This document shows, one piece after another, positions 22,011-30,118 of a stretch of DNA of 64,000 bases. The notes under the pieces were generated by a model, which saw only the letters and a list, made by a program, of their open reading frames with translations, did not search any database and was not told the origin of the DNA. Made by a program: the position numbers and the translations under genes. The stretch covers positions 434,001 through 498,000 of the forward strand of contig NZ_JAHVIA010000004.1 of NCBI RefSeq assembly GCF_019801965.1, given 5' to 3'. Source of the stretch: Salipiger bermudensis (GTDB lineage Bacteria; Pseudomonadota; Alphaproteobacteria; Rhodobacterales; Rhodobacteraceae). Positions within the stretch are counted from its first letter, which is position 1; each line of letters starts with the position of its first letter.

Positions 22011-22631
22011 GTGCCCACCGACTGGACCCCCGCCGCGCTTTCCGACGACATCCCCGCGGCCTCCGCCGCGCCGGGGCAGCTCGGGCCGCATGACCTCGCG
22101 ATCTGGCGCAGCGCCTCCGGGCGCATCGCCGCCTGGGCCGACCGCTGCCCGCATCGCGGCATGCGGCTGTCGCACGGTTACGTGCGCGGCGAGCGGCTGT
22201 CCTGCATCTATCACGGCTGGGGCTATGGCGAGGGCGGGCAATGCGTACGCATCCCGGCCCATCCCGAGCTGACCCCGCCCGAGGCGATCAAGGTGCCGGT
22301 GTTCCGGGCGGTCGAGGCGAGCGGGGTGATCTGGGTGGCCGTGGAGGCGCCGGAGGCGCCGCCGCCGGAGTTTCCGGGGTTCGAGGCGTTTCGCTCGCTG
22401 CAGGTGAAGGCCGCGCCGGAGGCGCTGGCCGGCGCGCTTGGCGGCAGCGGGCTGGTGGTCGAAGCCGCGCTTGGCGGCGCCACGGTGGTGGCGCTGATCC
22501 AGCCGCTGCGCGATGGCGCGGTGGGGCTGCATCTGCTGGCGCCGGAGGCGCTGGGGGCTGCGGAGCTCGATGCGCTCTCGGTGGCGGCGGAGGCGCTGCG
22601 GCGGCGGGTGGAAGAGGGGGTGACGGCATGA
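22011..22631 (+). CDS. Stand-alone Rieske [2Fe-2S] protein
   Basis: This 206-residue protein has a Rieske domain in its first 110 residues. The cluster ligands are Cys46-Pro-His48 (RCPHRG) and Cys65-x-x-His68 (CIYHGW), the spacing of Rieske oxygenase centres. The C-terminal 95 residues are Ala/Gly-rich, match nothing I recognise and carry no oxygenase iron site. The start is GTG 22011 with a GGAGA site; no better ATG exists in frame. Its stop overlaps the start of the oxygenase catalytic gene, so it probably supplies the electron-transfer centre that protein lacks, as the extra N-terminal Rieske domain of NdmD does for NdmC. Confidence 0.88.
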   Translation: MPTDWTPAALSDDIPAASAAPGQLGPHDLAIWRSASGRIAAWADRCPHRGMRLSHGYVRGERLSCIYHGWGYGEGGQCVRIPAHPELTPPEAIKVPVFRAVEASGVIWVAVEAPEAPPPEFPGFEAFRSLQVKAAPEALAGALGGSGLVVEAALGGATVVALIQPLRDGAVGLHLLAPEALGAAELDALSVAAEALRRRVEEGVTA

Positions 22632-23473
22632 GCGAGACGGGCGCGATGCGCGATCACTGGTACCCGGTGGGGATGACCAAACAACTCACCGAAGCAGGCC
22701 GCGACACGCTGCTGATGGGCGAGCCGATCCGGGTCTTCCGCGACGGCGGCCAGCCGCAGGTCAGCGACGGCGCTGGCCGCGCGCTGCCGGTCATCGACCG
22801 CTTCGGCCATGTCTGGACCTCGCTGGGCACGCCCGCGAAGGATCTCTTCACCATCCCCGAGGCCGATCAGCCCGGGCGGCGGCTTGTCGATGTCGGCGTC
22901 TGCCGGGTGCGCTGCTCGCCGCTGCGCGCGGTGGAGAACTTCCTCGACATCGCGCATTTCCCCTTCGTGCACACCGACATCCTCGGCTCCGAGCCGCACA
23001 CCGAGGTCGAGCGCTACGAGGTCGAGATCCGCGATGATGTCGACGAGGTCTGGGCCACCAAGGTGAAGTTCTTCCAGCCGCAGGCGGCGAAATCCGCCGA
23101 GGGCGGCATCACCACCGATTACATGTACCGCGTCTGCGCCCCGACCTGTTCGGTGCTCTACAAGACCTGCCCGCCGAAGCCCGGCGAGTGGGACGTCATC
23201 GCGCTTTTCGTGCAGCCGCTGACCGAGACGCTTTGCGATGTCTGGCCGTGGATGGCGCTCTACGATGACGACGCCGAGATGACCGACCTGATCCATTTCC
23301 AGCAGATGATCTTCGTGCAGGACCGCTCGGTGCTGGAAAACCAGCTCCCCGCGCTGCTGCCGCTCGATCCCGGGATGGAGATCCCGACCCGGGCCGACAT
23401 GACCTCGATCGCCTATCGCCGCTGGCTCAAGCGGCATGGCTTCACCTACGGCGCGCAACTGGTGGCGGCATGA
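22628..23473 (+). CDS. Rieske-less oxygenase catalytic subunit (NdmC-like)
   Basis: This 281-residue protein is the catalytic half of a Rieske non-heme iron oxygenase. The 2-His-1-carboxylate site is visible as Asn104, Asp107, His110 and His115 (ENFLDIAHFPFVH), with the carboxylate ligand Asp232 in FVQDRSVLENQ. The N terminus keeps the family's outer strands (HWYPVG, GHVWTSLG), but the segment holding C-x-H and C-x-x-H is gone. This is the architecture of NdmC, the caffeine-pathway N7-demethylase subunit that borrows a Rieske centre. It overlaps the Rieske gene and the GST-like gene by four bases each. The substrate is inferred, not proven. Confidence 0.82.
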   Translation: MSETGAMRDHWYPVGMTKQLTEAGRDTLLMGEPIRVFRDGGQPQVSDGAGRALPVIDRFGHVWTSLGTPAKDLFTIPEADQPGRRLVDVGVCRVRCSPLRAVENFLDIAHFPFVHTDILGSEPHTEVERYEVEIRDDVDEVWATKVKFFQPQAAKSAEGGITTDYMYRVCAPTCSVLYKTCPPKPGEWDVIALFVQPLTETLCDVWPWMALYDDDAEMTDLIHFQQMIFVQDRSVLENQLPALLPLDPGMEIPTRADMTSIAYRRWLKRHGFTYGAQLVAA

Positions 23474-28137: not shown

Positions 28138-29210
28138 TGGGCATCCGGATGATCCGCCGCACCACCGCCTCGCGGCGCATGGCGGTGCTCGCGCCGATGG
28201 GCGCTCTGGCGCTCGCCATCGTGCTGAACTTCCTGCTCTACATCGTCATGGGCAACGACCCGGCGGCGGTGTTCTATGCGCTGCTGCTCGAGCCCTTCGT
28301 ATCGTGGTCGTCGTTTTCGGAGGTGCTCCTGAAGATGACGCCGCTGCTGCTCATCGCGCAGGGGCTCGCCATCGGCTTCCGCGCCAAGGTGATCAATATC
28401 GGCGCCGAGGGGCAGTTCATCCTCGGTGCGATCTTCGCCAGCGCCATCCCGGTCTGGTTCCCGCAGGCGACGGGCGGCTGGATCTGGCCGCTGATGCTGC
28501 TGCTGGGCGGCGTGGGCGGCGCGCTCTGGGCGGCGCTTCCGGCATTCTGGCGGGTGCGGCTCAACGCCTCCGAGATTCTTGTCACGCTGATGATGAGCCT
28601 GATCGCGGGGCAGCTTCTGGCCTATCTGCTGGTGGGGCCGTGGAAGGATCCGATGGGGTTCAACTTCCCGCAGACGGTGATGTTCCAGTGGGATGCGATG
28701 GTGCCGACCCTGATCCCCGGGACCCGGGTCAACGTGGCGCTGATCCTGGCGCTGCTCTGGACGGCGCTGGCCTATGTCTACATGCAGAAGAGCTTTCAGG
28801 GCTACCAGCTGGTGGTCGGCGGGCTGGCGCCGCACGCCACCGCCTATGCTGGCTTTTCCGAAGGGCGCGCGGTCTGGCTGTCGCTGCTGATCGGCGGCTT
28901 CGCGGCGGGGCTCGCGGGCGCCGCCGAGGTGGCGGGGCCGATGGGGCAGCTGCAGCGCGGCATCGCCTCGGGCTACGGCTACGCGGCGATCATCGTGGCC
29001 TACCTGGGCGGTCTGCACCCGGTGGGCATCCTGTTCTCCTCGCTGTTCATGGCAGCGCTCTATATCGGCGGCGACAATGCCATGGTCTCGGCCGGGCTGC
29101 CGGTGGCCGCGGTGCGGGTGTTCCAGGGCTCGCTGCTCTGCTGCTACCTCGCGGCCATCGTTCTCGTGCGCTACCGGCTGGTGCGTGACGGGCAGGAGGT
29201 GACGGCATGA
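28137..29210 (+). CDS. ABC transporter permease, nucleoside/nucleobase type (NupP-like)
   Basis: This 357-residue membrane protein has about eight to ten hydrophobic segments and the BPD_transp_2 signature NIGAEGQFILGA followed by LNASEILVTLMMS. It pairs with the next permease to form the channel of a BMP-dependent transporter. The start is the ATG that shares a base with the ATPase stop codon; a GTG one codon upstream would also work. The conserved segments match purine nucleoside or nucleobase importers rather than ribose importers. Confidence 0.9.
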   Translation: MGIRMIRRTTASRRMAVLAPMGALALAIVLNFLLYIVMGNDPAAVFYALLLEPFVSWSSFSEVLLKMTPLLLIAQGLAIGFRAKVINIGAEGQFILGAIFASAIPVWFPQATGGWIWPLMLLLGGVGGALWAALPAFWRVRLNASEILVTLMMSLIAGQLLAYLLVGPWKDPMGFNFPQTVMFQWDAMVPTLIPGTRVNVALILALLWTALAYVYMQKSFQGYQLVVGGLAPHATAYAGFSEGRAVWLSLLIGGFAAGLAGAAEVAGPMGQLQRGIASGYGYAAIIVAYLGGLHPVGILFSSLFMAALYIGGDNAMVSAGLPVAAVRVFQGSLLCCYLAAIVLVRYRLVRDGQEVTA

Positions 29211-30118
29211 GCGCGCTCTCCTTCATCATCGCCGGCATGCTGGCCGCCGCCATGCCGTTCCTGCTTGCCGCCCTGGGCGAGCTGGTGGCCGAGCGTTCGG
29301 GGGTTCTGAACCTCGGCATCGAGGGCATGATGGCGCTCGGCGCGGTGGTGGCCTTCATCGTGGTGCGCCAGAGCGGCGGCCACGCGATGGGCTTTGTCGC
29401 CGCGGGGCTGGCGAGCGCGGCGCTCGCGACGGTCTTCGCCTGGCTGGCGCTGGCGGTGCGGGCCAACCAGGTCGCCGCCGGGCTTGCCATCGGCATCCTC
29501 GGGCAGGGGCTTTCGGCGCTGTTCGGCAAGCGCTACGAGAGCCTGACCGTGCCCGGCCTGCCCAAGCTCTCGATCCCGGGCCTGTCGGAGTTGCCGCTGC
29601 TGGGCGGGCTGTTTTCGCAGGATGCGGTGGTCTGGCTGGGCCTGCTGGCGACGCTGGCGATCTGGGCCACGCTGCGGTTTTCCAAGCTCGGGCTGGTGAT
29701 CCGCGCGGTGGGCGAGAACCCCCACGCGGCGCGCGCTTTGGGCTACAACGTCATCGCCATCCGCTACGGCGCGGTGGCGTTCGGCGGGCTGATGGCGGGC
29801 TTTGCCGGGGCCTACGCGGCGACGGTCTACACCCCGCTCTGGGCCGAGGGCATGATCGCCGGGCGCGGCTGGATCGCGCTGGCGCTGGTGGTCTTTGCCA
29901 CGTGGATGACCGGCCGGGTGGTGTTTGGCGCGGTGCTCTTCGGGGCGGTGTCGCTGTCGCAGCTCGCCGCGCAGGCCGGCGGCGTGGCGCTGAACTCGCA
30001 ACTGCTGGCAAGCCTGCCCTATATCGTCACCATCCTCGTGCTGGGCGCGATCTCGGCCAACAAGCGGCTGCTGAAGATCAACGGCGTGGCCTCGCTGGGC
30101 GAACCCTTCGGGCGCTGA
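29207..30118 (+). CDS. ABC transporter permease, second subunit (NupQ-like)
   Basis: This 303-residue, very hydrophobic protein has the signature NLGIEGMMALGA near residue 39, a substitution-tolerant copy of the motif in the first permease. VGENPHAARALGYNV is typical of NupQ/YufQ proteins. It overlaps the first permease gene by four bases. Together with the preceding three genes this is a complete uptake system with no obvious missing part. Confidence 0.9.
   Translation: MSALSFIIAGMLAAAMPFLLAALGELVAERSGVLNLGIEGMMALGAVVAFIVVRQSGGHAMGFVAAGLASAALATVFAWLALAVRANQVAAGLAIGILGQGLSALFGKRYESLTVPGLPKLSIPGLSELPLLGGLFSQDAVVWLGLLATLAIWATLRFSKLGLVIRAVGENPHAARALGYNVIAIRYGAVAFGGLMAGFAGAYAATVYTPLWAEGMIAGRGWIALALVVFATWMTGRVVFGAVLFGAVSLSQLAAQAGGVALNSQLLASLPYIVTILVLGAISANKRLLKINGVASLGEPFGR

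Follow-up and report, generated by a model that had tools for sequence, protein, structure and literature searches.

An operon of Salipiger bermudensis combining a split Rieske oxygenase related to NdmCDE, a predicted NdmH and an AtzT-like importer

The NdmC-NdmD-NdmE complex (NdmCDE) of caffeine degraders is described in PMC4408171 as a 7-methylxanthine N7-demethylase with a Rieske-less iron subunit, a glutathione S-transferase (GST)-like partner and a Rieske domain carried on another protein; the same account relates that homologs of unassigned function in Sinorhizobium and Mesorhizobium were noted by Summers 2013, so that the clade of split enzymes treated below is not new. The amidohydrolases poNdmH, hsNdmH and rbNdmH hydrolyse N2,N2-dimethylguanine with kcat/KM values of about 1e5-1e6 and a 150-3600-fold preference over guanine, and NdmH is reported as the ancestor of AtzB (Drexler et al. 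2026, PMC13054789). The binding protein AtzT has a guanine affinity of 110 nM, its Asn218 approaching the guanine amine (PMC6834077), and HpxDE is a molybdenum-free xanthine hydroxylase (PMC7373994). Among the top-ranked open-access literature matches no publication on a methylguanine or dimethylguanine Rieske pathway was found. Here we analyse a 64,000-nucleotide stretch of Salipiger bermudensis (hereafter the window; contig NZ_JAHVIA010000004.1, positions 434,001 to 498,000) that carries an operon joining relatives of NdmCDE, NdmH and AtzT.

It is probable, in our judgement, that this operon serves the catabolism of an N-methylated guanine whose 2-amino group is dimethylated, acting through NdmH and N-demethylation by a split Rieske oxygenase. 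Nine same-strand genes span positions 21609-30118 (+), with 159 nt between the end of the first (ACYL) and the start of the second (RIESKE) and with overlaps or gaps of at most 19 nt at the other junctions. The original prediction for this DNA had correctly located the eight genes from RIESKE onwards, all of which lie on the plus strand, as a tightly packed set, and the presence in one operon of a stand-alone Rieske protein, a homolog of GST, an enzyme of the amidohydrolase type and an importer of the BMP type agrees with the Pfam matches (Rieske, GST, Amidohydro_1, Bmp, ABC_tran and two BPD_transp_2); its gene count was incomplete, the co-directional gene at 21609-21851 having been overlooked. 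The start of the first permease gene was corrected to about 28134. Rfam models at the gathering threshold revealed no riboswitch in the window, the single match being one tRNA. The operon genes are as follows.

21609..21851, + strand: ACYL, protein of 80 amino acids with an acylphosphatase fold but lacking the catalytic residues; probably the leading gene of the operon and probably a structural partner (AlphaFold model, Foldseek)
22011..22631, + strand: RIESKE, stand-alone Rieske [2Fe-2S] protein of 206 amino acids with a tail of about 80 amino acids (Pfam PF00355, Rieske tree)
22628..23473, + strand: CAT, Rieske-less mononuclear-iron oxygenase of 281 amino acids, a relative of NdmC with a vestigial N-terminal Rieske scaffold (PF19112 VanA_C, tree)
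23470..24144, + strand: GST, NdmE-like glutathione S-transferase homolog, putative structural partner (Pfam GST_N/GST_C)
24146..25501, + strand: NdmH, predicted N2,N2-dimethylguanine hydrolase of the amidohydrolase type (13/13 poNdmH residues, Pfam Amidohydro_1)
25521..26618, + strand: BMP/PnrA-type solute-binding protein of the AtzT (guanine-binding) group with a Tat signal (PF02608, TAT_signal_seq)
26626..28137, + strand: ABC transporter ATP-binding protein with two ABC_tran stretches (PF00005)
28134..29210, + strand: ABC transporter permease 1, PERM1 (PF02653, BPD_transp_2)
29207..30118, + strand: ABC transporter permease 2 (PF02653, BPD_transp_2)

The amidohydrolase had been taken for an 8-oxoguanine-deaminase-type enzyme, an assignment that was abandoned: its score of 382 bits falls short of the 532 bits required by the curated NCBIfam model for 8-oxoguanine deaminase, and it carries the signature of NdmH instead. 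All 13 active-site or substrate-flanking residues given for poNdmH of Pleomorphomonas oryzae (Q74, W85, W93, Y98, Y133, N165, C213, Q214, N217, E243, H275, P300 and D326; Drexler et al. 2026, PMC13054789), including the CQNN motif, are present in the window protein at a constant offset of 8, and no other offset from -40 to 40 gave more than 3 of them. The copy in the Pleomorphomonas operon (locus L106) fits the poNdmH numbering, since numbering with the glutamine at 74 starts exactly at a methionine and yields 13/13 residues. Two relatives in the PDB, 7ww2 and 3hpa, differ from the window protein at CQNN-type positions. The fetched loci, with overlapping ones counted separately, contain 105 related amidohydrolase open reading frames (ORFs), of which 82 had all 13 residues, five were fragments matching at the 11 sites they cover and 18 were without the NdmH signature. 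By each of the 13 published residues the window amidohydrolase, which is 55% identical to AtzB, is a predicted N2,N2-dimethylguanine hydrolase. The substrate is for this reason more plausibly a guanine bearing two methyl groups on N2, with or without a further N-methyl group, than plain 7-methylguanine, the base originally suggested.

The gene is also tied to CAT. The genome searches covered 198 genomes of the family, the window's genome included, and 398 genomes of the phylum; at a threshold of E <= 1e-120, with the best first-look candidates of each genome scored, NdmH-type genes were found in 5/198 family and 5/398 phylum genomes (nine distinct), and CAT was present in each of the nine. Plasmid records with at least 60% identity numbered 128 for NdmH and 125 for CAT, totals that are not paired record by record; in the 18 records listed for both, the two genes lie side by side. 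This tight link is the main reason for thinking that the natural substrate needs both enzymes. While the gene context of NdmH is a planned follow-up in the published account (PMC13054789), here the gene sits in a demethylase-importer operon.

RIESKE matches the Pfam Rieske model (E 1.2e-20) and has the ligands C46, H48, C65 and H68. CAT matches VanA_C (E 1.2e-19) and has no Pfam Rieske match, and its iron-site residues N104, D107, H110, H115 and D232 do not vary among 13 aligned sequences, the window protein among them, which confirms the predicted catalytic subunit with an intact iron site but without Rieske ligands. The reference sequences for NdmC, NdmD and NdmE were homologs on a Klebsiella plasmid and not the proteins of P. 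putida CBB5; on this plasmid lies a cluster of the caffeine type, in which the first oxygenase matches NdmB (E 1.4e-186) and its neighbours were used as the three homologs. CAT is 44% identical to the NdmC homolog, RIESKE 39% to the Rieske domain of the NdmD homolog and GST 40-43% to NdmE homologs (40% over 203 amino acids against the Klebsiella-plasmid copy), and NdmC falls in the same clade as CAT, in line with the division of labour that had been proposed by analogy to NdmC and NdmE. The structural model of CAT (mean pLDDT 70.9) matches SxtT, GxtA and NdmA in the PDB.

In an oxygenase tree of 71 sequences rooted on NdmB-like proteins all Rieske-less proteins, NdmC included, formed one clade (bootstrap 98), within which the window lineage with its mostly free-Rieske relatives was one subclade (97) and the mostly NdmD-linked lineage the other (79). 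The Rieske tree grouped the partners of split enzymes (88) beside the Rieske domains that belong to the closest unsplit oxygenases (90 for the two groups jointly), with L032 as an outlier on a long branch, and the matching shape of the two trees argues for a common ancestry of the split system with NdmC and NdmD. Residues 7-86 of CAT can be aligned to RIESKE (E 1e-5, probability 82%) but lack the segment that binds the cluster. These relationships suggest that the split arose when the gene of a single fused oxygenase was duplicated and the two copies then each lost the function that the other kept. A remnant of the catalytic domain in the tail of RIESKE was also considered and rejected (only E 0.011, probability 4%). 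An NdmE-like GST occurs in 15/15 split loci (L160-L174, of which L164 holds a fragment at a contig edge) vs 0/5 unsplit loci (L175-L179), and among the 80 best loci described below GST exceeded 150 bits in every one. The unsplit Rieske oxygenases of L175-L179 are sister to the split clade and are accompanied by BMP importers and guanine-deaminase-like ORFs, with an adenosine deaminase confirmed in L178.

The operon thus shares with NdmCDE the Rieske-less iron subunit, the GST-like partner, the Rieske domain on a separate protein and, according to both trees, its ancestry. Unlike in NdmCDE, the Rieske protein is free rather than fused to a reductase (RIESKE comprises 206 amino acids, and no match in the window's genome covers both halves of NdmD), the operon is without a reductase, an acylphosphatase-fold gene is added, the oxygenase is paired with NdmH and an ABC importer, and several putative pocket residues are changed. 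The model of the additional protein, ACYL, has an acylphosphatase fold (mean pLDDT 95), and Foldseek ranks acylphosphatases highest (TM 0.82-0.88 within the top ten). The gene lies beside the operon in 76/80 of the best loci and is annotated as acylphosphatase in R. johnstonii. We took the catalytic positions of acylphosphatases to be the Arg of the VQGVxFR loop and an Asn; the ACYL family alignments show no conserved Arg or Asn at these positions, and a structural role is therefore proposed. ACYL is probably a structural partner that has no acylphosphatase catalytic residues.

The binding protein of the importer matches AtzT (E 1.2e-78) and 3s99. As compared with the site described for AtzT (PMC6834077), the equivalents of S97, F98, E165, W194 and N218 are kept and the stacking Y45 is replaced by W; unlike in AtzT, an inserted Q-D takes the place of N220 in 82 binding proteins and adds one residue close to the 2-amino edge of the guanine site, which gives the window protein a remodelled loop, N222-A-Q-D225. 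Because Asn218 of AtzT approaches the guanine amine, this loop would suit a dimethylated 2-amino group. That the substrate is a purine, as had been predicted from the importer and deaminase, is supported by the membership of the importer in the guanine-binding AtzT group with guanine-site residues largely kept, and by the NdmH type of the amidohydrolase. The idea that AtzT itself originated inside this operon was dropped, AtzT being without the inserted loop.

A scan of named species genomes confirmed at least 543 relatives, of which the best 80 loci were kept for analysis; these hold the closest relatives of CAT (72-83% identity) and hence are no random sample. Five plasmid loci were added to give a set of 85. 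CAT, GST and a Rieske protein occur together in 85/85 loci (three plasmid loci have the Rieske protein as a fusion with a reductase), and the binding protein, the ATPase and both permeases in 81/85. In the family survey CAT was found in 11/198 genomes, with a free Rieske protein and GST nearby in 10 of these 11 (exception G033). The Rieske and GST genes therefore do accompany the catalytic gene, an association on which the original prediction had staked itself. The gene order is repeated in Rhizobium, Mesorhizobium, Paracoccus, Marivita and others, which argues against a chance arrangement; in Rhizobium johnstonii it reads LysR, acylphosphatase, Rieske, oxygenase, GST, amidohydrolase, BMP, ATPase and two permeases. 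Pairwise distances correlate at 0.87-0.96 between the operon genes (75 loci having six of the genes), and the operon thus behaves as a unit. Viral relatives of CAT were not found with the six peptide patterns used. Taken together, this appears to be a real conserved operon for a methylated guanine and a variant of the NdmCDE principle.

From the gene content, homology, active-site signatures, co-occurrence and common ancestry observed directly here, we infer the substrate, complex formation and release of formaldehyde as follows, the order of the NdmH and demethylation steps, likewise deduced, not being fixed. The AtzT-like importer would take up a free methylated guanine base, and NdmH would hydrolyse its N2-dimethylamino group to yield dimethylamine and a xanthine-type base. 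A complex of CAT, RIESKE, GST and possibly ACYL would oxidise the remaining ring N-methyl group to formaldehyde with electrons from a reductase encoded elsewhere, and xanthine dehydrogenase (XDH), present in the same genomes, would complete the route from xanthine to urate. XDH was over the cut-off in all 12 CAT genomes searched. N-demethylation, the chemistry originally proposed, still appears likeliest in view of the kinship of CAT to N-demethylases and of the formaldehyde gene frmA, which adjoins split relatives in five loci (L114, L168, L170, L172 and L173, with NCBIfam confirmation in L170 and L173). The relative in L173 combines a free Rieske protein, CAT (as a shortened ORF), GST and a reductase of its own. 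In L114 (S. meliloti pSymA) three NdmC-like genes, NdmD, NdmE, a BMP importer, PurU and frmA lie within about 17 kb.

N2,N2,7-trimethylguanine, the cap base of small nuclear RNA, is a natural base that carries a ring N-methyl group in addition to two methyl groups on N2. It is the leading candidate for the substrate, the most attractive one though unproven. A more specific picture, namely a dedicated N2,N2,7-trimethylguanine pathway in plant- and algae-associated bacteria, with import, NdmH and N7-demethylation by a three- or four-protein split Rieske enzyme that includes GST and a dead acylphosphatase and stems from one duplicated ancestral oxygenase gene by complementary loss, is put forward tentatively, as a speculation with the odds against it.

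Several observations weigh against a route through both NdmH and N-demethylation of a ring methyl group. CAT occurs without NdmH in the family genomes G153 and G165, in G506, where none lies beside CAT, and among more distant CAT types, and it lacks Rieske or GST genes nearby in G033 and in L183, a Roseicitreum plasmid with a second, orphan CAT. The operon includes no reductase; one must come from elsewhere, as had been foreseen, and the nearest candidate in this NdmD-free genome is 29% identical to the reductase half of NdmD and lies about 450 kb away on the same contig. A formaldehyde gene is likewise missing from the operon, which speaks against simple equivalence with NdmC, and no strong frmA match was found in the best 80 loci (L037 and L068 gave weak matches of 56 and 74 bits; some loci are short). 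Genes for dimethylamine oxidation were discarded as support, PF11927 being present in 11/12 CAT genomes but also in 149/198 family genomes, no clear enrichment. NdmH and XDH could already consume N2,N2-dimethylguanine between them. Finally, CAT differs from the NdmC homologs at the putative pocket positions 146, 152, 173, 192, 206, 208, 210 and 222. At positions mapped by eye it has V146, T173, W206 and W208 vs C, F/N, H and I in two NdmC homologs; V146, W206 and W208 are invariant in a 20-row alignment of the window lineage and common to the L027 and L160 types, with Tyr at 208 in the congener G088. Q225 and F229, the putative equivalents of the specificity pair of NdmA and NdmB, are the same in the NdmC homologs. 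CAT may thus differ from NdmC in substrate or orientation, or the pocket positions may be wrongly mapped, and N7 regiochemistry is not to be assumed.

These pocket differences would also fit a rival scheme, which we regard as unlikely, in which CAT demethylates N2-methylguanine at its exocyclic N2 to give guanine and NdmH separately takes care of the dimethylated base, so that the operon would cover the N2-methylguanines of RNA. N2-methylguanine is common in RNA. The scheme explains why NdmH was never seen without CAT in the genome searches, and guanine would be the common product in the variants L027 and L160, which pair CAT with a small protein of cytidine-deaminase fold instead of NdmH; L027 also carries a guanine-deaminase-like amidohydrolase. 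However, -NHR leaving groups are cleaved by AtzB-cluster enzymes as well, so that N2-methylguanine might be hydrolysed directly, and the relatives that have been characterised, NdmA, NdmB and NdmC, act at nitrogens of the ring (PMC4408171).

Less probable still is a CAT that removes no methyl group and acts as a molybdenum-free C8 hydroxylase in the manner of HpxD, converting xanthine to urate or guanine to 8-oxoguanine. HpxDE is likewise a Rieske oxygenase of purine catabolism (PMC7373994), HpxD being related to CAT (31% identity) and located beside urate genes, and the five unsplit relatives sit with BMP importers and guanine-deaminase-like ORFs, one of them also with an adenosine deaminase. 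Unlike CAT, HpxD has a fused Rieske domain, falls outside the NdmC/CAT clade, has G where CAT and NdmC have N104 and showed no GST match in the locus fetched; moreover, XDH in all the searched CAT genomes would make the step redundant, and frmA adjoins split relatives. Equally doubtful is the originally predicted import, deamination and N7-demethylation of 7-methylguanine, which would fit the 7-methylxanthine activity of NdmCDE (PMC4408171) and the guanine-deaminase-like proteins that replace NdmH in L027 and L160, but the deaminase of the operon bears the signature of enzymes that strongly prefer the N2,N2-dimethyl base over guanine, and the pocket gives no ground for assuming N7 regiochemistry.

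Related clusters in L116, L028 and L029/L030 contain NdmC-like genes (two each in G116 and G046) and guanine deaminase-like genes, L116 in addition a GMC oxidoreductase and a two-subunit thiamine diphosphate enzyme reminiscent of LumK/LumL. They perhaps represent another modified purine pathway.

Upstream of the operon a one-carbon island (window positions 1330-21355) includes, according to NCBIfam, the trimethylamine monooxygenase Tmm, the trimethylamine N-oxide demethylase Tdm, a type III glutamine-synthetase-like gene, the sarcosine oxidase alpha subunit SoxA and the formyltetrahydrofolate deformylase PurU, along with genes that we take to encode MgsABC (N-methylglutamate synthase) and the sarcosine oxidase subunits SoxB/SoxG. 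The island could use dimethylamine and formaldehyde, which is suggestive only. The neighbouring one-carbon genes to which the original prediction pointed are thus present, but their link to the operon is weak, with strong matches next to it outside the window's genus in L104 alone among the best 80 loci and a weak one (121 bits) in L108. An 87-nt inverted repeat (21408-21494 and 31155-31241, 95% complementary) brackets the operon and a downstream CehA/McbA-type PHP metallohydrolase gene (30229-31116); the latter adjoins the operon in the congener G088 and was unmatched in the 85 loci. The repeat was rejected as the end of a mobile element because its sequence is dispersed through the genome, where it has 46 matches, of which 40 are strong.

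The operon exemplifies a caffeine-type demethylase arrangement with a free Rieske subunit and illustrates the distribution of a Rieske oxygenase over two genes, with a GST partner that accompanies the split form. It also provides a gene context for the recently described NdmH and predicts a catabolic fate for the hypermethylated guanines of eukaryotic RNA. As AtzB reportedly descends from NdmH (PMC13054789), the operon also points to a natural setting from which this atrazine-degrading enzyme may derive.

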